A stretch of 64,000 nucleotides of DNA, from the NCBI RefSeq assembly GCF_001922305.1, contig NZ_CP018839.1:1240001-1304000 (forward strand), written 5' to 3'. The notes beneath the pieces were generated by a model. The model ran no database searches, was not told where the DNA came from, and saw nothing but the letters and a program-made list of their open reading frames with translations. Of this stretch, positions 4,545-64,000 are shown one piece after another. Position 1 is the first letter of the stretch. Every line of letters begins with the position of its first letter. The position numbers and the translations under genes were made by a program. The DNA comes from Thauera chlorobenzoica (lineage in GTDB: Bacteria; Pseudomonadota; Gammaproteobacteria; Burkholderiales; Rhodocyclaceae).

Positions 4545-5933
4545 CTACTGCAGCTGGAAAGTGGTCTGCGTGCCCTCGTCCCAGCCGTCCCACAGGAAAT
4601 CGTCGGCCTTGCCGTCGGCGATCAGGCGCAGGGCGTAACGGACCTGCTCCTTGTAGAACTCGCAGAATGCGCCGGTACGGCCCATGCCGCCATTCATCTC
4701 GTGCGCCTCGGCCGGACAGGGCGAACCGCAGAAATGGCGGATCGCGCACTCGGCGCAGGGGCTGAAGCGGTCCACGTCGCGCTCGATCACCGGGCGGAAC
4801 GCCGGCGAGACGAGGGCTGCTTCGACGCCGCCATCGAGCAGCTTGCCGCCGTTGAAGCGCGGCAGGCCGATGAACTCGCTGCACGGGTAGAGGCCGCCGT
4901 CGGCGGCAAGCGCGAAGAAGGCGCGCCCGCCGCCGCAGGGTGAGATGTCGCACATCAGGCGGCGTGCGCTCGGCGCCAGGATCGCGAGCACGATGTTGGC
5001 GAAGTTCGCCACCACCAGCTTGCGCCCGCTGTCCCGGTAGAGCGCGTGGCTGCGGTCGAGCGCGGCGAAGAAGGCGCGCCCCATGTCGGCATCGGCCGGC
5101 TTCACCCCGCGCGCGCCGGGCAGCGTGCAGCGCACGGTGTTGAGCATGCAGGTCGGCACTTCGTGGGCGTGGAAGAGCTCGATCATCTCGCTCAGCCACG
5201 GCAGGTTCTCCCCGGTGCAGGTGGTGATCACGCTCCACGAGCCGTAGCCGCGCAGTTTTTCCATCGCCGCCAGTACCTTGCCGTGCACGCTGTGGCCTCC
5301 CCAGGTGCGCCGGGTGGCATCGGTGATCGCGGCGGCCGGGCCGTCGAGCGACAGCCCGATGCTGACGTTGCGCGCGGTGAGGAAGGCGATCGCCGCGTCG
5401 TCGAGGAGGGTGCCGTTGGTCTGCACGCCGAAGGCGAAGTCGTCGCCGAAGGCGTCGATCGCGGCGAACACCGCGTCCTTGTTCATCAGCGGCTCGGCGC
5501 CGTGGAAGATCGCGCGCGGCTTGCGCCCGCTGTCGCCCATCGTCGACGCGAAGTAGTCCTTCAGCGCCTGCAGCGAGTCGAGCAGGGTCTGCGCCGGCAT
5601 GTGGCTGCCGCCGCTGCGCTGCTCGCCGGGCAGGTAGCAGTAGCGGCAGTCGAGGTTGCAGCGCTCGGTCGGGTTCAGATACACGCCGGAAGGCTTGAGG
5701 CCGAAGCGCAGCGCATGCAGTTCGCGGGCGAACTCGTCGAAATGGGCGCGGTAGCCGTCGAGCAGCGGGCCGCCGGCGAGCTCGGCATCGACCCGGGTCT
5801 TGTCCACCAGCGCCCAGAATGCGGTCGCCGGATCGGTGAGGGCGGCGTAGACCGGGTGGCCGATGTCGACCGGGATCAGCCGCGGGCCCGGCGGCGGGAG
5901 TGGGGCGCTCCCCGGGAGTGGGGCGGCCCTCAT
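4545..5933 (-). CDS. cbpB: Radical SAM/SPASM peptide-modifying enzyme, CbpB-like
   Basis: 462-residue radical SAM enzyme predicted to modify the peptide encoded just upstream. The SAM-binding 4Fe-4S motif CNLDCRYC is at residues 92-99 within NPTERCNLDCRYCYLPGE. GAEPL at 145-149 and SLDGP at 195-199 are typical of SPASM peptide maturases. The C-terminal half has eight cysteines suitable for auxiliary clusters (328, 333, 351, 393, 396, 402, 406, 424), with CAECAIRHFCGSPCPAE forming the SPASM signature. The ATG overlaps the stop codon of the precursor gene (ATGA), so translation is probably coupled. Its neighbours, a short peptide and a cobalamin riboswitch, match the arrangement I recall for the computationally defined CbpA/CbpB family, whose product is to my knowledge uncharacterised. 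The chemistry (thioether, C-C or other crosslink) cannot be read from the sequence. Confidence 0.85.
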   Translation of the reverse strand: MRAAPLPGSAPLPPPGPRLIPVDIGHPVYAALTDPATAFWALVDKTRVDAELAGGPLLDGYRAHFDEFARELHALRFGLKPSGVYLNPTERCNLDCRYCYLPGEQRSGGSHMPAQTLLDSLQALKDYFASTMGDSGRKPRAIFHGAEPLMNKDAVFAAIDAFGDDFAFGVQTNGTLLDDAAIAFLTARNVSIGLSLDGPAAAITDATRRTWGGHSVHGKVLAAMEKLRGYGSWSVITTCTGENLPWLSEMIELFHAHEVPTCMLNTVRCTLPGARGVKPADADMGRAFFAALDRSHALYRDSGRKLVVANFANIVLAILAPSARRLMCDISPCGGGRAFFALAADGGLYPCSEFIGLPRFNGGKLLDGGVEAALVSPAFRPVIERDVDRFSPCAECAIRHFCGSPCPAEAHEMNGGMGRTGAFCEFYKEQVRYALRLIADGKADDFLWDGWDEGTQTTFQLQ

Positions 5934-6094
5934 TTTGCCGCCTTCCGGTCCATCAGCACGTAGTGCGACAGGCCGATGCCGTCGGGGTTGCAGCTCTTGC
6001 GCACGGCGAGGGTGGGCGCGGGTGCGGCCACGCCGGTGGCGGCAGGGGCGGGCGAGCAGGGTGCTACGGCAGGGAGAGTGTGGGTCGGTTTCAT
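5930..6094 (-). CDS. cbpA: Short modified-peptide precursor, CbpA-like
   Basis: 54-residue peptide encoded directly downstream of a cobalamin riboswitch and overlapping the radical SAM gene by 4 bp. The N-terminal two thirds are alanine/proline rich and look like a leader; the C-terminal third reads RKSCNPDGIGLSHYVLMDRK (residues 32-51). Cys13 and Cys35 are the only cysteines, and Cys35 lies in the conserved-looking SCNPDGIGLSHY stretch, the probable core or recognition segment. The ATG at 6094 is 19 nt from the U-tract of the riboswitch terminator, and GAGGAT a few bases upstream can act as ribosome-binding site. The composition resembles a RiPP precursor rather than a spurious frame. Which residues are modified, and whether the peptide is cleaved or exported, cannot be told. 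Confidence 0.82.
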   Translation of the reverse strand: MKPTHTLPAVAPCSPAPAATGVAAPAPTLAVRKSCNPDGIGLSHYVLMDRKAAK

Positions 6095-6112
6095 GATCGG
6101 ATCCTCGAATCG

Positions 6113-6170
6113 GAAAAACAAAAAGGGCTCCGGCCGAGGGCACGCTTGCGCATGCGCTCGGCCGGAGCCC
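6113..6170 (-). terminator. Riboswitch-linked intrinsic terminator upstream of cbpA
   Basis: A perfect 14-bp stem, GGGCTCCGGCCGAG (6125-6138) with CTCGGCCGGAGCCC (6157-6170), closes an 18-nt loop. On the minus strand it is followed by TTTTTGTTTTT. It lies between the aptamer and the peptide ATG, so it is the likely expression platform. Confidence 0.88.
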
Positions 6171-6176
6171 TTGCCT

Positions 6177-6359
6177 GGACTCCTCCGCGGTTCGACACGT
6201 CTTCTGGCTCCCGGATCAGCCGTAGCGCTGCGCCTTCCCGGCGGGGTGGTCCCCGCCAGTGGCCGGTCTGTCGACCTTGCAGCGCCCGTCCCCGGATACA
6301 GCGGCGGGCCCGCCACGGATTTGCACCGTGTTCCGTTTCGTCGAACCGAAAGGAGGTCC
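6177..6359 (-). promoter_or_regulatory. Cobalamin (B12) riboswitch controlling cbpAB
   Basis: Read on the minus strand, this has the conserved cobalamin aptamer pieces in order: GAAACGGAACACGGTGCAAA, then GGGCCCGCCGCTGTA, GCCACTGG, GGGAAGGCG, and the B12-box-like GGGAGCCAGAAGACG. The P1 arms are long and clear: 6340-6359 pairs with 6177-6196, including CGGTTCGAC against GTCGAACCG and CCTCC against GGAGG. The strong terminator directly downstream suggests that bound adenosylcobalamin stops transcription, so cbpAB would be expressed when cobalamin is scarce. Confidence 0.9.
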
Positions 6360-6517
6360 GATTGTCCGTGAGGGCCGTGCTCGGGGTCAAGCGCCATCCA
6401 TCCCCATCCACCGCCGTCCGGCACCATCGCCGCGCGGGCCGGTCCGACGCTGCAGGAGCGTGCCGGCGCTGCAGCGCCGCGGTGCGCGCAGCCTGCACAT
6501 GCAGCGGAGGACACGAC

Positions 6518-8035
6518 ATGGATGCAAGGACTCTTTGTGCCCGTCTGGGCCTCGACCCCGGCATGCTCGCGAGGGGCGGGCAGACGGTGATCTCGCCGAT
6601 CGATGGCAGCGTGCTGGCGCGGATCGCATTCGCTTCCCCGGCCGGGGCCGAGGACCGCATTGCCCGGGCCGCCGCTGCCTTTGCCGCCTGGCGGCAGGTG
6701 CCGGCGCCGCGCCGCGGCGAGCTGGTGCGCCGCTTCGGCGCGCTGCTGCGCGAGCACAAGGCGAGCCTCGGCGCGCTCGTCACCCTCGAGTGCGGCAAGG
6801 TCCGCAGTGAAGGTGAAGGCGAGGTGCAGGAGATGATCGACATCTGCGACTTCGCCGTCGGCCTGTCGCGCCAGCTCCACGGTCTCACCATCGCCTCCGA
6901 ACGCCCGGGCCATGCGCTGCGCGAGAGCTGGCACCCGCTCGGGGTGATCGGCATCGTCACCGCGTTCAACTTTCCGGTCGCGGTGTGGGCGTGGAACGCG
7001 GCGCTGGCGCTGGTGTGCGGCGATGCGATCGTGTGGAAGCCGTCGGAGCGGACGCCGCTGTGCGCGCTGGCCTGCCAGCACCTGCTGGAGCAGGCCGCCG
7101 CCGGCATGGACGACGTGCCTGCGGGCCTGTCCGCGGTGCTGCCGGGCGGCCCCGAGCTCGCCCTGCTGCTGGCCGACGACCGCCGCCTGGCGCTGGTCAG
7201 CGCGACCGGCAGCTGCGCGATGGGGCGCGTGCTGGCACCGCGCATCGCGCAGCGCTTCGGGCGCAGCATCCTCGAACTGGGCGGCAACAATGCGGTGATC
7301 GTCACCCCCAGCGCCGATCTCGAACTGGTCTTGCGCGCGATCGTGTTCGGCGCCGTCGGCACCGCCGGCCAGCGCTGCACCAGCACGCGGCGGCTGTTCG
7401 TCCATGCGCGGGTGCGTGCGGCGCTGCTGTCGCGCCTGCGCGCGGCCTACGCACGGATCGTGGTCGGTGATCCGCGCGAAGCCGCCACCCTGGTCGGCCC
7501 GCTGATCGATCGCGGCGCTTTCGAGCGGATGCAGGCGGCGCTCGCCGCGGCGCGCGCGCAGGGGGCGTCGGTGTGGGGTGGGGAACGGGTGCTGGCCGAG
7601 CGCTTCCCCCGTGCCTGGTACGTGCGCCCGGCGCTGGTCGAGCACGGGCCGGCGGTGCGCAACAGCAGCGAGGAAGTGTTCGCCCCCGTGCTCCACTGCT
7701 TCGACTACGAAGATCTCGACGAGGCGATCGCGCGCCACAATGCCGTGCCCCAGGGCCTGTCGTCGGCGATCTTCACCAACGAGCTGCGCGAGGCCGAGCG
7801 CTTCCTGGCGGCGGCGGGGAGCGATTGCGGCATCGCCAACGTCAATGCCGGCACCAGCGGTGCCGAGATCGGTGGCGCCTTCGGCGGCGAGAAGGATACT
7901 GGCGGCGGGCGCGAGGCCGGTTCGGACGCCTGGCGCGCCTACATGCGGCGCTCGACGGCGACGATCAACTATTCCGCCGCGCTCCCCTTGGCGCAGGGGG
8001 TGAGCTTCGAAGTGGACGTCGCCGCTCCGCGCTGA
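6518..8035 (+). CDS. Aldehyde dehydrogenase, ALDH7 / aminoadipate-semialdehyde dehydrogenase type
   Basis: 505-residue NAD(P)-dependent aldehyde dehydrogenase. The best-known members of this subfamily oxidise alpha-aminoadipic semialdehyde (in equilibrium with piperideine-6-carboxylate) in lysine catabolism. The general-base Glu253 lies in LELGGNN and the catalytic Cys287 in GTAGQRCTSTRR. PLGVIGIVTAFNFPVAVWAW, WKPSERTP and the C-terminal GGEKDTGGGREAGSDAWRAYMRR are typical of the ALDH7 branch. GGAGGA lies 6 nt before the ATG at 6518. The gene is divergent from the riboswitch-controlled peptide pair and is not itself under the aptamer, which faces the other way. No other lysine-degradation genes are adjacent, so the substrate is inferred from the subfamily alone. 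Confidence 0.88.
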   Translation: MDARTLCARLGLDPGMLARGGQTVISPIDGSVLARIAFASPAGAEDRIARAAAAFAAWRQVPAPRRGELVRRFGALLREHKASLGALVTLECGKVRSEGEGEVQEMIDICDFAVGLSRQLHGLTIASERPGHALRESWHPLGVIGIVTAFNFPVAVWAWNAALALVCGDAIVWKPSERTPLCALACQHLLEQAAAGMDDVPAGLSAVLPGGPELALLLADDRRLALVSATGSCAMGRVLAPRIAQRFGRSILELGGNNAVIVTPSADLELVLRAIVFGAVGTAGQRCTSTRRLFVHARVRAALLSRLRAAYARIVVGDPREAATLVGPLIDRGAFERMQAALAAARAQGASVWGGERVLAERFPRAWYVRPALVEHGPAVRNSSEEVFAPVLHCFDYEDLDEAIARHNAVPQGLSSAIFTNELREAERFLAAAGSDCGIANVNAGTSGAEIGGAFGGEKDTGGGREAGSDAWRAYMRRSTATINYSAALPLAQGVSFEVDVAAPR

Positions 8036-9450: not shown

Positions 9451-10512
9451 TCAGCAGATCCGCGGCAGCTGCTCGCCGGCGAGCCAGTCCACCATGCGCC
9501 GTCCGCCGAAGCCGGTGCGGATCTGGACGAAGCGCTGCGGGTCGGCGGTGACGGCGCCGATGCAGGCCGCCTGTGCGCCCAGCGGGTGGGCGCGCAGCGC
9601 CGCGAGCAGGGCGTCGGCGGCCTCTGCGGTGCACACCGCGACCAGCTTGCCTTCGTTGGCGACGTAGAGCGGATCGAGGCCGAGCAGCTCGCATGCCGCG
9701 CGCACCGGCGCCGCCACCGGAATCGTCCCTTCCTCCAGCTCGATCCCCACCCCCGACTGGGCGGCGATCTCGTTGAGGGTGGTCGCCAGTCCGCCGCGGG
9801 TGGGGTCGCGCAGCACGCGGATCGCCGCCGCCGGCACCGCGCCATAGAGCGCCTCGACCAGGCCGTTGAGCGGTGCGCTGTCGGAGACGATCGTCGACTC
9901 GAAGGCGAGCGCCTCGCGCTGGGCCAGGATCGCCATGCCGTGCTCGCCGATGCCGCCCGACACCAGCACTGCGTCGCCGGGGCGGGCGCGGGCGCCGCCC
10001 GGGTCGCGCCCGGCGGGCAGGGCGCCGACGCCGGCGGTGGTGATGAACACGCCGTCGCCCTTGCCCCGTTCGACGACCTTGGTGTCGCCGGCCACCACCA
10101 GCACGCCGGCAGTACGCGCGGCCGCCGCCATCGAGTCGACGATGCGGGCGAGCTCGGCGAGGGGGAAGCCTTCCTCGAGGATGAAGCCCGCCGTCAGGTA
10201 CAGCGGACGGGCGCCCATCACTGCGAGGTCGTTGACCGTGCCGTGCACCGACAGGCTGCCGATGTCGCCGCCGGGGAAGAACAGCGGGCTGACGACGTGG
10301 CCGTCGGTGCTCACCACCAGGCGCTCGCCGGGAGCGGGCGCGGGCAGCACCGCGCCGTCGTCGCCGCGGGCGAGGTAGTCGTTGGCGAAGGCGCGTGCGA
10401 ACAGTTCGGCGACGAGTTGGGCCATCGCCCGTCCGCCGGCGCCGAAGCCCAGGTCGACGCGGCCGTGGTGCAGATCGAGCGCTCGGGTGAAGGTGGCGTG
10501 GAGGGTGTTCAT
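9451..10512 (-). CDS. hypE: Hydrogenase maturation protein HypE (carbamoyl dehydratase)
   Basis: 353-residue PurM-fold enzyme. It receives a carbamoyl group from HypF on its C-terminal cysteine and dehydrates it with ATP to a thiocyanate, the source of the cyanide ligands of [NiFe]-hydrogenase. The diagnostic C-terminus PRIC is intact. Inside are GFGAGGRAM near the N-terminus, VAGDTKVVERGKGDG and RDPTRGGLATTLNEIA, all family hallmarks. The ATG at 10512 fits the family start. It is the last hyp gene of the operon, 85 bp after hypD. Confidence 0.95.
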   Translation of the reverse strand: MNTLHATFTRALDLHHGRVDLGFGAGGRAMAQLVAELFARAFANDYLARGDDGAVLPAPAPGERLVVSTDGHVVSPLFFPGGDIGSLSVHGTVNDLAVMGARPLYLTAGFILEEGFPLAELARIVDSMAAAARTAGVLVVAGDTKVVERGKGDGVFITTAGVGALPAGRDPGGARARPGDAVLVSGGIGEHGMAILAQREALAFESTIVSDSAPLNGLVEALYGAVPAAAIRVLRDPTRGGLATTLNEIAAQSGVGIELEEGTIPVAAPVRAACELLGLDPLYVANEGKLVAVCTAEAADALLAALRAHPLGAQAACIGAVTADPQRFVQIRTGFGGRRMVDWLAGEQLPRIC

Positions 10513-10597
10513 CGTAAAGCGGGCTCCGGGTTCAAATTCGGGAGGGGACGCAAACCGTTCCTCATCCATTCGGTGCGACAGGCCCGAAGGCCGGGCA

Positions 10598-11740
10598 CTA
10601 ATCCGTGCGCTGCGCCGCAGCGCGGAAGCGCCCGTAGGTGTAGTGCGCGGCGCAGGCGCCTTCCGAGGACACCATGCACGCGCCCATCGGCGTTTCCGGC
10701 GTGCATGCTGTGGCGAACAGCTTGCAGTCGGTGGGGGTGCGCACGCCGCGCAGGATCGCGCCGCAGGCGCAGGCCTTGTGGTCGGGCACCGGGCGATCGT
10801 CGAGGGCGAACTTCCGCTCGGCGTCCCAGCGCGCGAAGGCCGGGCGGAGGCGCAGCGCCGAATCGGCCACGGCGCCGAGGCCGCGCCATTCGAAGCTGGG
10901 CCGCGACTCGAAGGTGTCGGCGACGAGCGCCTGGGCCTTGCGGTTGCCGTCGCGGGTGACGGCGCGGGTGAATTCGTTCTCGACTTCGGCGCGGCCGTCG
11001 TTGACCTGGCGGATCAGCATGCGGATCGCCTGGATCACGTCGAGCGGCTCGAACCCGGCGATCACCACCGGCTTGCGGTGCGCGGCGGCGAAGCGCTCGT
11101 AGGGGCGGCTGCCGATCACCGTCGACACGTGGGCGGGGCCGACGAAGCCGTCCAGCGCCACCGTGCCGAGCTCGCGCACTTCGGGCGATTCGAGGATCGC
11201 GGCGATCGCCGCCGGCGTCAGCACGTGGTTGCAGAGCACGCTGAAGTTGTCCAGCCGCTGGGCCGCGGCGGCGTGCAACACGAGCGCAGTGGGCGGCGTG
11301 GTGGTCTCGAAGCCGATGGCGAAGAACACCACTTCGCGCGCCGGTTCGCGCACCGCGAGGGCGAGCGCGTCGGCCGGCGAATACACCATGCGCACGTCGG
11401 CGCCGCGCGCCCTCGCCTTCAGCAGCGACAGGCCGCCGGAGGCGGGCACGCGCAGGCAGTCGCCGTAGGTGCAGACGATGACGTCGGGGCGCGCCAGGGC
11501 GAGCCGGATCGCCATGTCGATGCGCCCGATCGGCAGCACGCACACCGGGCAGCCGGGGCCGTGGATCATGCGCACCGTGGGCGGCAGCAGGTCGGTGACG
11601 GCGTAGCGCGCGATCGCATGGGTGTGGCCGCCGCAAAATTCCATGAAGGCGTAGTCGCGGCCGGGCGCGGCCTCGCGTGCGATCGCCCGCGCCAGCCCGG
11701 CGGCGAGGCGGCCGTCGCGGAATTCGTCGATGTACTTCAT
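10598..11740 (-). CDS. hypD: Hydrogenase maturation protein HypD
   Basis: 380-residue 4Fe-4S protein that with HypC forms the scaffold on which the Fe(CN)2CO centre of [NiFe]-hydrogenase is built. Conserved cysteine motifs are visible: [25 protein letters not shown], and the C-terminal cluster region [19 protein letters not shown] with [15 protein letters not shown]. The start codon overlaps the hypC stop (ATGA), implying translational coupling with its complex partner. Length and motifs are normal for the family. Confidence 0.97.
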
Positions 11741-12003
11741 GTACTGCTCCCACGCTGCGCATCAGGGTGATCGCGGGCGGCGGCGGGGTCGAGGCCGGCC
11801 TCGGCGAACAGCGCCAGGGTGCGCTCGGCTTCGGCCGGATCGAGCCGGGTCAGGGCGTAGCCGACGTGCACGATGACGTAATCGCCGAGCGCAGCGCCGT
11901 CGACGAGGGCGAGCGAGATTTCCTTGCGCACGCCGCCCAGTTCGACACGGCACAGCTCGCCGTCGAGCAGCTCGACGATGCGGGCGGGAAGGGCGAGGCA
12001 CAT
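11737..12003 (-). CDS. hypC: Hydrogenase maturation chaperone HypC
   Basis: 88-residue chaperone that binds HypD and the hydrogenase large-subunit precursor during cofactor insertion. It begins MCLALPARI, with the essential Cys2 exposed after Met removal, and has the typical [12 protein letters not shown] strand. It overlaps hypD by 4 bp and starts 2 bp after the hypF stop codon. Confidence 0.96.
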
Positions 12004-12005
12004 GC

Positions 12006-13307
12006 TCAGGACTCCTGTGCGGCGAGACGGTGGTGGGCGACCCAGGCCTGGCCGAGGGCGAGGCCGGCATCGCCGGGTGACAGCCGCTGGGCGCCGAGCA
12101 CGGTCAGGCCGTGCGCGCCGAGGGCGGATTCGAGCGCAGCCGAGAGCAGGCGGTTGTGCAGGCAGCCGCCGCAGAGCACGATGGTGTCGCAGCCGCTCGG
12201 CGTGCGTGCGTGCTCCACCCAGTCCACCAGCGCGGCCGCCACGGTGGCCTGGAAGCGCGCCGCACCGCGCGCGGCGTCGGTCTCGTCGGCGAGGCGCAGC
12301 AGCAGGGGGTGGAGGTCGAGCTCGAGCAGAGGGGCGGCAGGGGGCGATGAAGCGGCCGCGCCGGCACCGACCGCGGACCGACCGGTGCCGTCCGCGGTCG
12401 GTGCCGGCGTCGCCGGGTGGGCGAGGATGCGCCAGTCGCCGGGCGTTACCTCCGGCGCGGCGCTGTGCGCGGCGAGCGCTTCGAGGGCGAGCGCGGCCTC
12501 CGCTTCCGCTTCCATCACCTCGCAGATGCCCAGCAGACCGGCGGCGGCGTCGAAGTGGCGGCCGAGGCTGGTGGTTGGCGGGCACAGCGCTGGGCGGGCG
12601 AGCACCTGGGCGAGCTGCGCCGCCGCCGGCTGGCGGGCGAAGCGGCGGGCGATCTCGGCGCCGCGGCCGCTGGCGTGGAGCAGTGCGGCGGCCATGCGCC
12701 AGGGTTCGCGCGCGGCGCGGTCGCCACCGGGCAGACGCAGCGGGCGCAGGTGGCCGAGGCGGACGAACTGCGCTCCCGAAACCCACAGCAGCTCGCCGCC
12801 CCAGGCGCCGCCGTCGCTGCCCAGGCCGACACCGTCGAGGGCGAGGGCGAGCACCGGGCGGGTGTCGAAGCGGCCGTGCTCGGCGAGCACCGCGCCGGCG
12901 TGGGCGTGGTGGTGCTGCACCCCGAACGCCGGTAGCCCCAGGCGCGCGGCGGTGGCGAGGGCAACGCGGGTGGAGTGGAAATCGGGATGGAGGTCGTGGG
13001 CAACGGCGCGTGGCGGGCGCCCGGAGGCGGCAAGCAGGGCGGCGACCGCGGGCGCGACGCCGCGGCAGGCTTCGGCGTTGTCGAGATCGCCCAGGTTGGG
13101 GCCGAAGCGCGCGCGGCCGTCCTCGAGCAGACAGGCGGCGTGCTTGAACCAGGCGCCGAGGGCGAGGATAGGCTGCGCGTCGGTGCGCTCAGCTGCGCCG
13201 ATCGAGGGCAGCGCCAGCGCCTCGCCGTGCACCAAGCCAGCGGGCGTGGACGAGCCGTTTGCGCCCGTCCCCGCGGCCGTCGACGCAAGGTCGGCGGCGG
13301 CGTTCAT
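12006..13307 (-). CDS. hypF: Short HypF (Kae1-like carbamoyltransferase domain only)
   Basis: 433-residue protein corresponding to the C-terminal, Kae1/TsaD-like carbamoyltransferase half of HypF. Full-length HypF proteins (about 750 residues) begin with an acylphosphatase domain, two zinc-finger repeats and a YrdC-like domain; none of these is present. The kept domain shows the metal-binding motif [27 protein letters not shown], and [11 protein letters not shown] near the end. The ATG overlaps the hypB stop codon (ATGA), which fixes the start, so the short form is not an artefact of start choice. A short HypF1 occurs in the Ralstonia eutropha hypA1B1F1CDE cluster, which has the same order. 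How carbamoyl-adenylate is supplied here is not evident; a full HypF elsewhere in the genome would explain it. Confidence 0.85.
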
Positions 13308-14227
13308 GCGCTCGCGCCGCGCCCGGCGCGTGCCGCCGCCAGCCCGGCCTCGATCCAGTCGATCCATTCGCCCACGCCCGCGCCGGTGGTGGCCGAGGTC
13401 TGGATCACGCGCAGGCGCGGGTTGACCCGCAGCGCGTAGTCGATCGCACGCCGCGCATCGAAGACGAGGTAGGGCAGCAGGTCGACCTTGTTGAGCAGCA
13501 GCAGGTCGGCGGCGGCGAACATGTCGGGATACTTGAGCGGCTTGTCCTCGCCCTCGGTGACCGACAGGATCGCCACCTTGTGCGCTTCGCCGAGGTCGAA
13601 TGCGGCCGGGCAGACGAGATTGCCGACGTTCTCGATCAGCAGCAGGCTGCCCGCGGCGAGGTCCATCCGCGCCAGCGCGCGCGCGATCATGCCGGCATCG
13701 AGATGGCAGCCCTTGCCGGTGTTGATCTGCAGCGCCGGCACGCCGGTGGCACGGATGCGTTCGGCGTCGAATTCGGTCTGCTGGTCGCCTTCGATCACCG
13801 CCGCCGGGATGCGGCCGGCGAGCGCCTGGAGCATGCGCACGAGGAGCGAGGTCTTGCCCGAGCCGGGGCTGGAGACCAGGTTCAGGGCGAAGATGCCGCG
13901 CGCGGCGAAGGCGGCACGGTTGGCGGCGGCGAGGGCGTCGTTCCTGGCGAGGAGGTCGCGCTCGATCTCCAGCATTCGCGTGGGCGTCGGCGCGGCGACA
14001 TGCGCGGGGTCGGCGGCCGGTGGTCGATGAGCGGGCGGGTGGCCGTACGTGTCGGCGGTGGGGAGGGGGCGGGCGTTTCCGGGCGCAGGCGGGTCGGCGC
14101 TCAATGCGCGCCAGCGGTGGGGGCGCTCGGCCGGCGCTCGTTGATGCGCCGCGCGCGCCTCCTTGCGGCCGCCGAAGACGGCGCCGATCCTCGCTTCCCC
14201 CCCACCGCATCCGCATGTCGTGCACAT
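13304..14227 (-). CDS. hypB: Hydrogenase nickel incorporation GTPase HypB
   Basis: 307-residue GTPase that delivers nickel to the hydrogenase precursor together with HypA. The N-terminal MCTTCGCG carries the high-affinity CxxCGC nickel site. A proline/histidine-containing linker follows (about residues 15-85), then the G domain with P-loop [24 protein letters not shown], a CHLD segment that provides the second metal site, and NKVDLLPYL. It lies 24 bp downstream of hypA and overlaps hypF by 4 bp. Confidence 0.96.
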
Positions 14228-58664: not shown

Positions 58665-59444
58665 CTACAGGGCGGTCATCCGCGCGCCTGCGAGCAGGCC
58701 GACATAGCAGGCGAGTTCCGCCGCCTGCTGCAGCGCGCCGAGCAGGTCGCCGGTGTAGCCGCCGAGGCGGCGCACGAACATGCGCGCGGCCCAGGCGGTG
58801 ACGCCGGCCACCGCGGCCAGCACGGCGAGGGCCTGGGCCGGCGCCAGCCAGGCCAGCGGGAGCAGGCCGAAGACGGCGGCGATGGCGAGCTCGGCCGGAG
58901 TCAGGCGCTTGGCGAGCGGCTTCGACTTGGCGGTTTCGTCCTCGCGTACGTAGGGCAGCAGGTGGATCAGGCTGGTCGAGGCGAGGCGCGACAGCGGGTG
59001 GGCGACGAAGAGCGCGAGCGCCACCGCGGGCCCGCCGCCGGCCGCCGCCAGTTCGAGCAGGGCCGCGGCCTTGGCGAGCAGCATCAGCACGATGCCGACG
59101 GTGCCGTAGCTGCCGATGCGCGAGTCCTTCATGATCGTCAGCACCTGCGCCTTGTCCCAGCCCCCGCCCAGCCCGTCGCAGGCGTCGGCGAAGCCGTCCT
59201 CGTGGAAGGCGCCGGTGGCGCGGATGGTCACCGCCATCGACAGGATCACGGCGAGCGCGGGCGGCAGCGCGAGGGCGAAGACGAGGTAGCTGACCGCGCC
59301 GAGCGCGCCCACCACCCAGCCCACGAGCGGGAAGTAGCGCGCGGCGTGGTTCAGGCGCTCGGTCGACCACGGCACCCAGGCCGGCACCGGCAGGCGGGTG
59401 AAGAAGCCGAGCGCGGTGAAGAAGAGTTCGAGCTGGTAGCGCAT
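58665..59444 (-). CDS. cobS: Adenosylcobinamide-GDP ribazoletransferase (cobalamin synthase) CobS
   Basis: 259-residue membrane enzyme that joins adenosylcobinamide-GDP with alpha-ribazole (phosphate) in the last assembly step of cobalamin. [15 protein letters not shown] at the start, [20 protein letters not shown] and [17 protein letters not shown] are the family signature; about six helices are present. ATG at 59444 chosen by homology. It is separated from cobT by the AlbA-type gene and from cobC by the Fic/IS/TA segment. Confidence 0.95.
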
Positions 59445-59579
59445 CAGGGTGTGTATCGGCGGGCCACCCATGGGCGGCGTATGCTGCGCATTGCAGGTGC
59501 GCATGGTTTATGGGGGAGTGTCATGTTGAATCAGGGTCTGTCGCCGGGCTTGAGCGTCATGCAGCGGCCTCTTTCTCTT

Positions 59580-59616
59580 TGATCCTCTTTGATGCTTTCA
59601 GCTTCAAAGAGGATCA
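59580..59616. repeat. Perfect 13-bp inverted repeat between cobS and the AlbA-type gene
   Basis: TGATCCTCTTTGA (59580-59592) and TCAAAGAGGATCA (59604-59616) flank an 11-nt loop, about 50 bp after the end of the AlbA-type gene (minus strand). The surrounding DNA is clearly more AT-rich than its neighbours. It could be a terminator hairpin (no clear T tract) or a scar of the insertion. Confidence 0.55.
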
Positions 59617-59664
59617 TATTGTTGATTTCAAACAGATATGCTTGACAGCCTCTTTGCTGGCTCT

Positions 59665-61326
59665 CTATTTCTCTGCCAGCTTCCAGCAAGATGCGGTGTC
59701 GGAGCCGACGTTCACAATGGTCCCCTTGCGCCGGAGCTTGGTAAGCAACGAGCTTATCTTGATGGCCTTCTGCTTTTCACTAAGCGCTTCGCTGAGTTTA
59801 TCCAGTAGCAACTTGTTGAGATCGGCCCGGGATGCCCCGTCCTTCATCGCCAGATAGTCGGTAATCAGCTTGAGATAGAAGGCGTCATCCTGCCCGCGAG
59901 TTCGGAGGTAATCCTCCAGGCTTGCCGTGGCCTTGGCGATCGAGGCTGAGACGAAAAGGTTCGGCTTCCGCCCCTCGATCAGACCGGCCTTGCGCAATCG
60001 GGCGGCTGCCGTGTCCGGCACCGGCAGCTTCTTCTGCACGCGATCCAGAGCCAGCACATCGACCAGCGGCAGCTCGGTCTTCTGGATCAGCAAGCGGCTG
60101 TAGGCAGGGTCCACCACGCTGCCATAGATGGTCAGCCTGACTACCCCGGCCTCGCTCAGGTCATAGTCGGGCATGGGGAAATAGCGCCGCGCCTGGCGTG
60201 CGTGCATGTCGTGAATGCCGTAGCCCATGGTGTCGATCATGTTCAGCTCGGCCATGGCCTGCGCCAGGAACGGGTTGCGGTAGCGCCGGGGTACCTTGTT
60301 GCCTTCCAGGTAATCCTCGGGCTGGCCTTCGAAAAAGCTCCCTTCGCTTTCGAAGATCAGCTTGTCCGGCTGCTCGATCACTACCACCCGGCCGTTTCGG
60401 GTGTAATCCTGGTGCGCGATGCAGTTGTGCAGTGCCTCCAGCACGATCTTCTGGTCGTACTTCGACACCTCCACCGGCAACAACTCGTCCTGCGGCAACA
60501 GACGGAGCTGGATGTTGCGGATGCGTCGGTAGAGCTGGGTCGTACTCAACAGGAACGGTGGCCCGAAGTGCTCATAGGCCCGCTCCGGACCGTCCAGTTT
60601 CCAGGTCAGCTGCGCGGGGTGCGGCGATAAGCGCCAGGCGGACTCAGGCTTGCCGAGCAGCAACAAGGTGGTGCGCGTGATCGCACCATTCTGGGTCGCA
60701 TGGGCGCGGTCCAGAAACGTGGCCAGCGGCCAGTTCATCACCTCTGTGGCATCGAAACGGTTGGCGTACTTCTTGGCAAATGACTCCCGCGCCTTGCCCA
60801 GTGCCGTTTCATCTAGATCGGCAAGGCTGGCGTCGGCAATGATCTGCGCGCTCCAATCCGCCTGCAGCGTTTGCTGGCGGATCTCATCGAGCTTGTCCAG
60901 CCCTAGTGGAGCGCGGCTTTCTCCCGCACGCGCGTAGTAATGCCCCTTCCAGGCGATCGGAATGCCGCGCGGTGCAGGCGGGACCTCGAACAAGATCACC
61001 CGTCCGGCCGGATGCTTCAGGACATGGATCTCGCGAAAGGTGATGCTCGGTTCGGTGCTCTGGGCAATCTGGCCCTTCAGGCCTTGTAGGCGTTCAGGCT
61101 CCGGACGGTAGTCCGAACCCGCCACGGTGCGGGACTTGTTGTGCACGCCGAACACCAGCCAGGCTCGGTCCGCCCCGCGCAGGTTGGCTTCGTTGCTCAG
61201 TGCCGAGAAATACTCCCCGATCTTGTCGGTGTCGTAGTCGTTGCCTGCCTGCTTGAACTCCACCACCTCGTTTTCCCAGGTGACCATCAGTCCATCGAGC
61301 AAGGTAGAAAGCGCCGCCTGATTCAT
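59665..61326 (-). CDS. AlbA_2/Schlafen-type ATP-binding protein
   Basis: 553-residue protein. The N-terminal AlbA_2 (Schlafen-like) domain reads ENEVVEFKQAGNDY, GEYFSALSNEANLRGADRAW and LVFGVHN. A divergent GHKL-type ATPase segment follows with ALHNCIAHQDYTRNGRVVVI, then DKLIFESEGSFFEG. The C-terminal 150 residues contain a likely winged helix (RLRKAGLIEGRKPNLFVSAS). Proteins of this type are annotated as transcriptional regulators or helicase-related and are frequent in accessory islands; some take part in anti-phage defence. ATG at 61326 has AAGGGGG upstream. The frame stays open 20 codons further, up to a GTG at 61389, close to the cobT stop. Inserted between cobT and cobS. Confidence 0.75.
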   Translation of the reverse strand: MNQAALSTLLDGLMVTWENEVVEFKQAGNDYDTDKIGEYFSALSNEANLRGADRAWLVFGVHNKSRTVAGSDYRPEPERLQGLKGQIAQSTEPSITFREIHVLKHPAGRVILFEVPPAPRGIPIAWKGHYYARAGESRAPLGLDKLDEIRQQTLQADWSAQIIADASLADLDETALGKARESFAKKYANRFDATEVMNWPLATFLDRAHATQNGAITRTTLLLLGKPESAWRLSPHPAQLTWKLDGPERAYEHFGPPFLLSTTQLYRRIRNIQLRLLPQDELLPVEVSKYDQKIVLEALHNCIAHQDYTRNGRVVVIEQPDKLIFESEGSFFEGQPEDYLEGNKVPRRYRNPFLAQAMAELNMIDTMGYGIHDMHARQARRYFPMPDYDLSEAGVVRLTIYGSVVDPAYSRLLIQKTELPLVDVLALDRVQKKLPVPDTAAARLRKAGLIEGRKPNLFVSASIAKATASLEDYLRTRGQDDAFYLKLITDYLAMKDGASRADLNKLLLDKLSEALSEKQKAIKISSLLTKLRRKGTIVNVGSDTASCWKLAEK

Positions 61327-61428
61327 GCCCACCCCCTTGATGCACTTCACTTCAGTGGACGACGAGAGCGGTTTGAAGATCTGCTCCACGTTGATCTTGA
61401 CCGCGCTGTTCTTGAATCCGGTTCCGCC

Positions 61429-62475
61429 TCAGCCCTTCTCGCTGACCCCGGCCGACTCGAAGCTCGCCATCTCGTTGAGGAAGTTCACCGCCGCCTGGAC
61501 GAGGGGGTAGGCGAGTGCGGCGCCGGTGCCTTCGCCCAGGCGCAGGTCGAGCTCCATCAGCGGTTCGGCGCCGAGGAAGGCGAGCTGCACGCGGTGGCCG
61601 GGCTCCTGCGAGCGGTGGGCGAACACGCAGTAGGGCAGGATGGCGGGGGCGAGGGCGTGGGCGACGAGCAGGGCCGAGGTGACGATGAAGCCGTCGATCA
61701 GTAGCACCATGCGCTTTTCCGCGGCGCCGAGCATGGCGCCGGCCATCATCGCGATCTCCAGCCCGCCGTATTCGGCGAGCGCTTCGAGGGCGTCGGTCGG
61801 GTAGCCGCCGCGCGCCAGCGCCTGGCGCAGCAGGGCGCGCTTGCGCGCCAGGCCGGCGTCGTCCAGGCCGGTGCCGCGGCCGGTGACGGTGTCGAGGTCG
61901 GCGTCGCGCTCGGCGCCGATCAGGCAGTGGGTCAGCAGCGAGGCGGCGGCGGTGTTGCCGATGCCCATCTCGCCGAAGCCGATGCAGTTGCAGCCGTTGT
62001 CCGCCAGCGCGTGGGCGAGGCGGCGCCCGCGCGCGAGCGCGGCGTCGCGCTGTTCGGCGCTCATCGCCGGGCGTTCGAGGTAGTTGGCCGTGCCCGCGGC
62101 GATCTTGGCGTCGATCAGCGCGGGGCGGGGGGCGAACGCGTGATTGACGCCGGCATCGACGACGCTGAGGTTGAGGCCGAGCTGACGGCTGAAGACGTTG
62201 ATCGCGGCGCCGCCGGCGAGGAAGTTCTCCACCATCTGCCAGGTCACGTCCTGGGGAAAGGCCGACACGCCGGCGCGCGCCGCGCCGTGGTCGGCGGCGA
62301 AGACGGCGAGGTGGGGCTGGCGCAGTGCGGGGGTCAGCGTCTGCTGGATCAGGCCGATCTGCAGCGCGAGCGCTTCCAGCCGGCCGAGCGCGCCGGGGGG
62401 CTTGGTCTTCTGGTCGATCTTGTGCTGGAGGGCAGGGGCGAGAGCGGAGTCGGGCGCGGCGATGTCGAAGTTCAT
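61429..62475 (-). CDS. cobT: Nicotinate-nucleotide-dimethylbenzimidazole phosphoribosyltransferase CobT
   Basis: 348-residue enzyme that makes alpha-ribazole 5'-phosphate for the lower ligand of cobalamin. [51 protein letters not shown] and [15 protein letters not shown] are family motifs; the catalytic glutamate lies near the C-terminus in [16 protein letters not shown]. The start overlaps the Uma2 gene stop by 4 bp. Confidence 0.96.
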
Positions 62476-63065
62476 GAGGGGGTGTCGGTGGTGGCGGAGT
62501 CGTCGGGAAGGTCGCGGTAGAGTTCGGCCAGCGCCAGCTCGAAGCCGAGCGCCGGAAGGTTGAGGGCAGCGCGGCCGCCGCTGGCTTCGCTCAGCAGCCA
62601 GCCGCCGTCGTCGCGGCGCGTGTAGCACTCGACGTGGGCGTGGTCCTGCGACAGGAAGAGCACCGTGCGCAGGCCGGGAAAACGGCGGTAGGCCTCGAAC
62701 TTGCGGCCGCGGTCGTAGGCTTCGGTGGACGGCGACAGCACTTCGGCGATCAGCGCCGGGTCTTCCTTGACCTGGCGGCGGGCGCGGTCGGCATCCGCGC
62801 AGCTGACGAAGACGTCGGGGTAGAACAGGCTGTCGTCCGCGGCCAGGCGTAGGCGCACGTCGGTCATGAACACGCTGCAGCGGGTGCCGGCCAATGCGTT
62901 GCGCAGAGCGAAGGCCGTGTTCAGGCAGATCGTGTTGTGCACGTCGGTGCCGCCGGCCATGGCGAAGGCCTCGCCGTCGACGAATTCCCAGCGCTCGGGC
63001 TGTTGCCCCTCCCAGGCGAGGAATTCGTCCAGGTTCATGGCGCGCTTTGCGGCGGGCAGGCTCAA
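62472..63065 (-). CDS. Uma2-family (DUF820) putative restriction-endonuclease-fold protein
   Basis: 197-residue PD-(D/E)XK-fold protein. [50 protein letters not shown] (Asp-ExxS pattern with the K of the motif) and [16 protein letters not shown] match the Uma2 family, common in cyanobacteria and some proteobacteria and of unknown function. It lies between cobU and cobT with a 4-bp overlap to cobT. It is probably a passenger rather than a cobalamin gene. Confidence 0.85.
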
Positions 63066-63098
63066 GTCGTGCTCCTCGGTTGGCGTCCAGGGCGCAGT

Positions 63099-63647
63099 TT
63101 AGCCCTGCTTGAGCACCAGCGGCAGGCCGGCGGCGACGAACACCACCTGGGCGCAGCACGCCGCCACCGCCTGGTTGAGCCGCCCGGCCTCGTCGCGGAA
63201 CAGGCGCCCGAGCGGGGTTTCCGGCACCAGGCCGAGGCCGACCTCGTTCGCCACCAGGATCACCCGCCCGGGCAGGGTGGGGAGGACGGCAAGGAGCGCG
63301 CCGCGCTCGTCGCGAAAGCGCGGCAGGGCCTCGGCTTCGGCGCCGGGGGGCAGGGCCTCGGCACCGGCGAGGAGGTTGGCGAGCCACAGCGTCAGGCAGT
63401 CGACGACCAGGCAGCGTCCGGGTGCGGCCTCGCGGCGCAGCGTGGCGGCGAGCGCCAGCGGCGCTTCGACGGTGCGCCAGGCGGCGGGACGGTCGGCGCG
63501 GTGGCGGCGGATGCGCGCCGCCATCTCGTCGTCGAGCGCCTCGGCGGTGGCGATGACGGTGACGGCGAGGCCGGAGGCGGCGGCGCGGCGCTCGGCCTCG
63601 CCGCTCTTGCCCGAGCGCGCGCCGCCCAGGATCAGTTCGGCGCTCAT
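63099..63647 (-). CDS. cobU: Adenosylcobinamide kinase / adenosylcobinamide-phosphate guanylyltransferase CobU
   Basis: 182-residue bifunctional enzyme that phosphorylates adenosylcobinamide and attaches GMP. P-loop [15 protein letters not shown] is at the N-terminus, [13 protein letters not shown] includes the guanylylated-histidine segment, [13 protein letters not shown] is Walker-B-like, and [19 protein letters not shown] is the CobU signature. First of the minus-strand cob genes and divergent from the cobalamin riboswitch to the right. Confidence 0.95.
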
Positions 63648-63793
63648 CGGATCAAGGGCTTGGGTTGTGCTTGAGGTGTGGCCGTACGGCCTCGTTCGGT
63701 GGCATGTGCGGGTGGGCAGGTTCGATGGCTCTGCAGGATTGCGTCCGGGACGGTATCATCCATTCCCATTGCCCCGGAAGGGGCAACGCGTTA

Positions 63794-64000
63794 TCGGTGC
63801 CCGCGGGCGGTTCTCGCCCCGGGTTAAACGGGAAACAGGTGCGCGGCCCATCGCTGGAACGATGGCCGCAATGCCTGTGCTGCCCCCGCAACGGTAAGTG
63901 CGCGCAAGGCGGATCACGCAGCCACTGGGACACCCTCCCGGGAAGGCGATCCGCTGCGACCGGCCCATCGGCCGGTACAGCGCCCGAGCCCGGAGACCGG
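63794..64000 (+). promoter_or_regulatory. Second cobalamin riboswitch, truncated by the right edge
   Basis: Plus-strand aptamer elements in order: TCGGTGCCCGCGGGC, GGGTTAAACGGGAAACAGGT, CCTGTGCTGCCCCCGCAAC with GGTAAGTG, GCCACTGG, GGGAAGGCG and the B12 box GAGCCCGGAGACCGG at the end. It matches the cobalamin consensus more closely than the aptamer near 6.3 kb. The controlled gene lies beyond the window and would be a cobalamin uptake or synthesis gene. GCCCC/GGGGC near 63770-63785 may extend the basal helix. Confidence 0.93.

Follow-up and report, generated by a model that had tools for sequence, protein, structure and literature searches.

A cobalamin-riboswitch-led CbpA/CbpB peptide system in Thauera chlorobenzoica and its possible accessory role in early-cobalt vitamin B12 synthesis

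We analyzed a 64,000-nt stretch of the Thauera chlorobenzoica contig NZ_CP018839.1 (the window, whose positions are used for all coordinates below), in which a short peptide gene, cbpA, and the gene of a peptide-modifying radical S-adenosylmethionine (SAM)/SPASM enzyme, cbpB, lie behind a cobalamin riboswitch. The order on the minus strand is cobalamin aptamer, terminator hairpin, cbpA and cbpB, with the following features:

6177-6365, minus strand: cobalamin riboswitch aptamer, full length over model positions 1-189 (RF00174, 82.6 bits, gathering score 31.5).
~6170-6114, minus strand: intrinsic terminator, candidate expression platform, with a 21-position stem, a 4-nt loop and the T-run TTTTTGTTTTT.
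5930-6094, minus strand: cbpA, encoding a 54-residue precursor peptide (TIGR04164, 52.8 bits, cut-off 35).
5960-5992, minus strand: conserved core of CbpA, Cys35 to Tyr45 (CNPDGIGLSHY), delimited by residue identity across 58 loci.
4545-5933, minus strand: cbpB, encoding the radical SAM/SPASM peptide-modifying enzyme, 462 amino acids (TIGR04163, 686.7 bits, cut-off 375).

Both NCBIfam cut-offs are passed, which bears out an identification made from the sequence alone (hereafter the original prediction): the pair is a member of the named, functionally orphan CbpA/CbpB family (TIGR04164, TIGR04163), from which it shows no difference in kind. Proteins of Thauera aromatica that already carry the names CbpB and CbpA are 97% and 83% identical to those of the window. 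The two genes share an ATGA at 5933-5930, where the cbpA stop overlaps the cbpB start. The original prediction had described a 54-residue peptide with two cysteines (Cys13 and Cys35) overlapping a radical SAM/SPASM gene, and a full cobalamin aptamer and terminator ahead of both genes; both descriptions hold, and relatives share the layout. A promoter-like match at 6390-6361 runs into the 5' end of the aptamer (6365) and is therefore probably not the promoter.

For comparison, loci were gathered via CbpB, giving 59 in all: the window, a 10-locus set and a 48-locus set from 47 assemblies (L numbers denote loci or fetched stretches, G numbers genomes). The 48-locus set was found with two CbpB patterns, so that divergent enzymes are under-represented, and open reading frames were called crudely, with missed genes or wrong starts possible. 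A cobalamin riboswitch lies directly 5' of cbpA in 10/10 loci of the smaller set and in 41 of the 46 testable loci of the larger one, L058 and L063 falling outside the count since their sequence starts too near cbpB. At four further loci (L053, L054, L057 and L069) the riboswitch heads a B12 operon that contains cbpAB. The window's terminator stretch has a folding energy of -52 kcal/mol, while shuffled versions average -28.7 (z -6.6; 0/200 shuffles equally stable), and a script search recovered the same stem; a consensus terminator scan did not list the window hairpin. By script, a terminator-like stem with a T-run precedes cbpA in 48/58 loci, the hairpin sequence varying by lineage and the stem being kept. 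The ten loci in which the script found no such stem are the four operon-embedded ones and L036, L058, L033, L047, L055 and L059, of which L058 is truncated and L047 partly masked. Judged from this arrangement, B12 should stop transcription before cbpA.

The other three cobalamin riboswitches of this genome precede BtuB-like/CobO/CobB genes, CbiM-CbiF-CbiX-CbiC-CbiD, and BluB genes. A second riboswitch in the window, at 63778-64000 on the plus strand, continues beyond the window end, with BtuB-like, CobO and CobB matches following it (stretch L078); the opposite strand holds CobS, CobT and CobU at 58665-63647. A fluoride riboswitch was seen within one fetched cbpAB locus (L050, 3276-3337, minus strand).

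The peptide is strongly conserved toward its C-terminus. Of the 59 loci, the window included, 58 have the core C-x2-[D/E/T]-G-x-G-L-S-H-Y, which reaches to the Desulfobacteraceae; the only locus without it, L063, is cut by a contig end. The C-terminal segment that had looked conserved in the original prediction is therefore conserved among homologues. The peptide pattern contains GLSHY, yet the loci were found through CbpB, so that the 58/59 count is not circular; conservation among 120 listed database CbpA peptides, by comparison, is biased by the search that found them. The C, G, G, L, S, H and Y of the core are identical in 58/58 sequences with varying codons, which points to selection at the peptide level. 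Just ahead of the core, the 15-residue stretches come in 56 different forms in these 58 sequences, and the cores in 15. Cys35 is the only cysteine inside the conserved core, Cys13 lying in the variable leader. Three residues after the core cysteine stands Asp in 50 sequences, Glu in 6 and Thr in 2 (n=58). Two Desulfobacteraceae loci, whose enzymes are ~50% identical to the window CbpB, have the cores CRRTGAGLSHY and CRPTGVGLSHY, and further CbpB members of the Desulfobacterota branch are among the best 120 matches listed. Another core variant, CNPEGMGLSHY, is shared by the isolate Dechloromonas hankyongensis (L066) and a metagenome-assembled genome (MAG; L042), and CbiD was found in neither.

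The three SAM-cluster cysteines of CbpB (92, 96 and 99, CxxxCxxC) and its eight C-terminal, auxiliary-cluster cysteines (328, 333, 351, 393, 396, 402, 406 and 424) are invariant in 22/22 aligned CbpB sequences, in agreement with the cysteine count of the original prediction; Cys269, outside both groups and passed over there, is likewise invariant in 22/22, Desulfobacteraceae included. CbpB passes the NCBIfam SPASM domain model TIGR04085 (44.4 bits, cut-off 27) and scores 15 against Pfam SPASM, under its cut-off of 21.5. Its best other NCBIfam family is PapB (NF047865, 104.8 bits, under the cut-off of 340); the SCIFF maturase model (TIGR03974) gives 85.8 bits, under a cut-off of 425. By sequence, the closest solved structure is 5wgg, and the Foldseek list for the predicted CbpB model is headed by 5why/5wgg, titled for thioether bond formation; we take 5wgg to be CteB. 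CbpB model residues from 15/16 onward align to 5why/5wgg starting at residue 1, at a root mean square deviation of 3.5-3.7 over 377-389 residues, these ranges being end points only. Model residues 20-77, inspected for a leader-binding RiPP recognition element (RRE; RiPP, ribosomally synthesized and post-translationally modified peptide) domain, form strands and helices.

The enzyme thus resembles, by sequence and predicted fold, thioether-forming maturases. Asp and Glu are described as acceptors of PapB (PMC9413430), and Thr as that of CteB (PMC8326336). The Asp, Glu and Thr found three residues after the core cysteine match these acceptors, and we count this in favor of thioether formation. 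CbpB, in the manner of CteB, would then form a bond between the Cys35 sulfur and Asp38 in CbpA, with a loss of 2 Da and a small ring before G-x-G-L-S-H-Y; we hold the chances of this to be evenly balanced. Alternatively, the core could be a plain metal site made of its Cys and His, an arrangement that its sequence does not set apart from the thioether.

What surrounds the pair in relatives connects it to B12 synthesis. At least two B12-synthesis genes were found by tblastn in the fetched flanks of 14/48 loci; as a rough yardstick, the B12 genes located in this Thauera genome occupy ~21 kb and one additional gene, from which we estimate that ~2% of random 20-kb stretches would include any of them. 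Gene labels in relatives were assigned with the proteins of L069, L057, L059 and L033 as tblastn queries. Reference proteins over their NCBIfam cut-offs are CobO, CobB, CobM, CbiD, CbiE/T, CobJ, CobI, BluB, CbiB, threonine-phosphate decarboxylase (labelled CobC), CobQ, CobU, CobS and CbiO. In L069 and in Thauera, the labels CbiX and CbiM are backed by scores over Pfam cut-offs. For CobT, proteins other than the L057 reference were scanned; the CbiC, CbiG and CbiQ labels stand on matches below cut-off (one CbiG half scanned). The labels of BtuB and the CobZ-like gene are assumed.

Four loci (L053, L054, L057 and L069) share the order CbiM-like, CbiF, cbpA, cbpB, CbiX, CbiC, CbiD, CbiE/T, CbiL, CbiG, CbiH, in which cbpAB lies at the junction of cbiF and cbiX, the latter encoding the cobaltochelatase. 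The Thauera genome has a CbiM-CbiF-CbiX operon in the same order minus cbpAB, with its own riboswitch and a CbiF/CbiX overlap of ATGA. Elsewhere the pair stands between threonine-phosphate decarboxylase and CobT (L059), before CobT with CobT and CobJ matches adjoining cbpB (L063), after CobT and a riboswitch (L055), or beside back-to-back riboswitches with CobC and CobD/CbiB (L025). L030 and L035 have a BluB match in their flanks, that of L035 being over cut-off. Two Desulfobacterota loci (L062 and L064) have riboswitch and cbpAB, and no B12 genes were found in their fetched flanks. In one Azoarcus MAG (L054/G408), both CbiD and cbpB seem to be present twice, one cbpB copy being embedded and the other following a riboswitch of its own. 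Next to the riboswitch of the embedded operon there is a match to a group II intron.

Other neighbors are more restricted. A gene for a GNAT acetyltransferase follows cbpB directly on its 3' side, on the same strand, in 6/48 loci (L040, L048, L049, L060, L066 and L067, the Dechloromonas group); its product might have the peptide as substrate, or the proximity might be fortuitous. In 4/48 (L023, L043, L047 and L061), genes for an ABC-2-type ATPase and its permease partner are found upstream of the riboswitch. One member per family was scanned for these two labels. Exporters, processing or tailoring genes general to the 48 loci were not found.

These neighborhoods bear on whether the product leaves the cell. 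A secreted scavenger of cobalt or corrinoids, or a secreted signal, would fit B12-riboswitch control, which suits an acquisition system, and BtuB-like genes do occur near L033, L057 and L069, as does the ABC-2-type pair at its four loci. That pair is confined to those 4/48, however, with the riboswitch between it and cbpA. Scavengers and signals tend to diversify, and CbpA shows the opposite, a near-constant core behind a variable leader. We regard a secreted scavenger or signal as improbable. An ordinary antibiotic-type RiPP, for which B12 control would be incidental, shares the layout of a precursor with a SPASM maturase, and appears far more improbable still, given the near-constant core, the B12 riboswitch at every testable locus except one, and the linkage to B12 genes in part of the loci. 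The near-constant core, combined with the lack of a general exporter among the 48 loci, makes secreted scavengers, signals and antibiotics alike less likely. The original prediction had suggested corrinoid or cobalt acquisition or signalling: its cobalt/corrinoid theme is retained, while uptake and signalling are disfavored, the nearby B12 genes being mostly those of synthesis (14/48) with four loci at the cbiF and cbiX junction. A signalling role in particular gained no positive support, exporters and processing genes not being general neighbors.

Across genomes the pair tends to accompany the cobalt-early pathway. Of 398 genomes sampled from the phylum, 11 carry CbpB and 94 carry CbiD; CbiD is present in 9/11 cbpAB carriers and in 85/387 others (Fisher p 6e-5, uncorrected for kinship, six of the 11 carriers belonging to one genus). 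Carriers were counted for CbiD, CobN and CbiJ in a 35-genome set, with 23 further genomes for CbiD. CbiD and CbiC are present in 7/7 carriers of known good quality. The cobalt-precorrin-6A reductase CbiJ (PF02571) was matched in 0/35 carriers, which raises the possibility that the peptide, once modified, acts as a redox or catalytic cofactor in corrin synthesis and replaces this missing enzyme. Such a role was suggested by an operon with nearly the whole anaerobic pathway, CbiJ excepted, and agrees with the presence of CbiD in 27/35 of the same carriers; within the phylum, CbiJ is missing in 9/9 CbiD-positive carriers against 37/85 CbiD-positive non-carriers (p 0.001, kinship uncorrected). Those 37 genomes, however, have CbiD and neither CbiJ nor CbpB, and two of them belong to the genus of the six carriers, so that CbiJ loss does not require CbpB. 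We consider replacement of CbiJ improbable. A CbiJ/CobK match (PF02571) is missing from 46/94 CbiD genomes, 37 of the 46 also being without CbpB, and a diverged or unrecognized cobalt-precorrin-6A reductase may be widespread.

We propose instead, at about even confidence, that cbpAB assists the early-cobalt (anaerobic) B12 pathway as an accessory unit that is expressed under B12 scarcity. B12 would halt transcription through the riboswitch and terminator upstream of cbpA; at low B12 the peptide and its maturase would be made. Because relatives hold the pair in riboswitch-led B12 operons, the mature product would probably act, most likely intracellularly, in B12 synthesis or in supplying it with cobalt. 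More tentatively, the product would bind Co(II), or the chelatase itself, helping to load cobalt into CbiX, whose gene adjoins the pair in four loci. It is possible, although this is somewhat more doubtful, that cyclized CbpA, made by the ribosome, carries cobalt to CbiX at low B12, and hence is a new kind of metallochaperone, a modified peptide in place of a protein, in a pathway for which work with CbiK reported no such need. Early cobalt insertion is carried out by CbiK or CbiX (PMC7242693). In carriers, 9/9 CbiX sequences (8 genomes) contain a CxxC and a tail rich in His, as in the CbiX-L form.

Several observations weigh against this accessory role or parts of it. Membership in B12-synthesis operons was found for part of the loci only, and the window is not one of them: the nearest B12 gene found, with the genome left of the window not covered, is CobS, ~52 kb from the riboswitch. 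The operon-embedded state requires two changes on the CbpB tree, so the four cbiX-side loci cannot be counted as independent of one another. No riboswitch was found upstream of cbpA in L036, even when searched at E up to 1. CbiD was found in 41/58 carriers (27/35 and 14/23), and a strict tie of cbpAB to ring synthesis is rejected, as CbiD was not found in the other 17/58, of which 16 are MAGs or under 80% complete. CobN, the late chelatase, occurs in 8/35 carriers, which excludes a strict tie to CbiX-type cobalt insertion. In the genus of the six carriers, G018 (99% complete) and G149 (74%) have CbiD and neither CbpB nor CbiJ; the pathway thus seems able to run without cbpAB, as would be expected of a helper more than of a catalytic step. 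Regarding the chemistry, the lead of PapB is narrow (DynA 99.7, nif11-type 94.2, cyclophane-forming YhhB 91.3 and SCIFF 85.8 bits), anaerobic sulfatase maturases are level with 5why/5wgg by VIA-align, and Cys35, if bound in a thioether, would be a poorer metal ligand. For the tail of CbiX-L, metal storage and delivery have been proposed, though its removal is reported to have left cobalt insertion unaffected (PMC7689651). A metallochaperone is reported to be needed in the late pathway and not in the early one, the latter having been studied with CbiK (PMC10206600).

The most direct exception is Dechloromonas hankyongensis, an isolate that has cbpAB and riboswitch and, in its assembly, no CbiD and no CbiC. 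The only B12 genes found in it are late-pathway ones: it keeps CobN and matches to CobO, CobC, CobD/CbiB, BluB, CobQ, CobU, CobT and CobS. This combination is what might be expected if the modified peptide were involved in corrinoid handling, aiding corrinoid uptake, reduction or adenosylation, which would be useful to salvagers and makers alike; L042, with the same core variant and also without CbiD, and the late-pathway neighbors at L059, L063 and L025 point the same way. The junction of CbiF and CbiX at four loci, in contrast, is an early step, and the 7/7 good-quality carriers with both CbiD and CbiC also argue against a corrinoid-handling role, which we judge unlikely.

An accessory role in early-cobalt B12 synthesis would set CbpA beside several known systems without equating it with any of them. 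Pyrroloquinoline quinone (PQQ) and mycofactocin likewise come from a short precursor whose C-terminal core hardly changes and on which a radical SAM maturase acts, and have a housekeeping role. Unlike in those systems, no tailoring gene is common to most cbpAB loci and no cofactor-dependent enzyme was identified. The likeness to the SCIFF maturase CteB lies in the top 5why/5wgg structure matches, the 5wgg sequence match and the occurrence of its acceptor Thr three residues after the core cysteine of CbpA; the SCIFF/CteB peptides (ranthipeptides) have six conserved core Cys against one in CbpA, and the predicted B12 control sets CbpA apart. PapB is reported to accept Cys-Xn-Asp with n of 0-6, so that the CxxD of CbpA is within its reach (PMC9413430); its substrate PapA (freyrasin) has six motifs against one in CbpA. 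CobW, too, is a helper that delivers Co(II) to a B12 chelatase, as proposed here for CbpA (PMC10206600 for CobW). CobW is a GTPase serving CobNST in late insertion, whereas CbpA is a putative modified peptide beside CbiX.

The family itself is already named, and its short name, rSAM_cobopep, suggests that its curators had seen the cobalamin link. No publication on CbpA/CbpB was found by name, TIGR number or topic in a search of a literature collection with few subscription papers. New here are the operon position between cbiF and cbiX and the acceptor pattern three residues after the core cysteine.

Two other stretches of the window are without an evident link to cbpAB. A divergently oriented gene for L-piperidine-6-carboxylate dehydrogenase adjoins the riboswitch at 6518-8035 on the plus strand, and the hydrogenase maturation genes hypE, hypD and hypB lie at 9451-14227 on the minus strand.

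The orphan CbpA/CbpB family now yields two predictions: a -2 Da thioether between Cys35 and Asp38 of the peptide, and a defect in low-cobalt B12 synthesis upon removal of the pair. If the proposed role is true, a modified ribosomal peptide would participate in the bacterial insertion of cobalt into vitamin B12.

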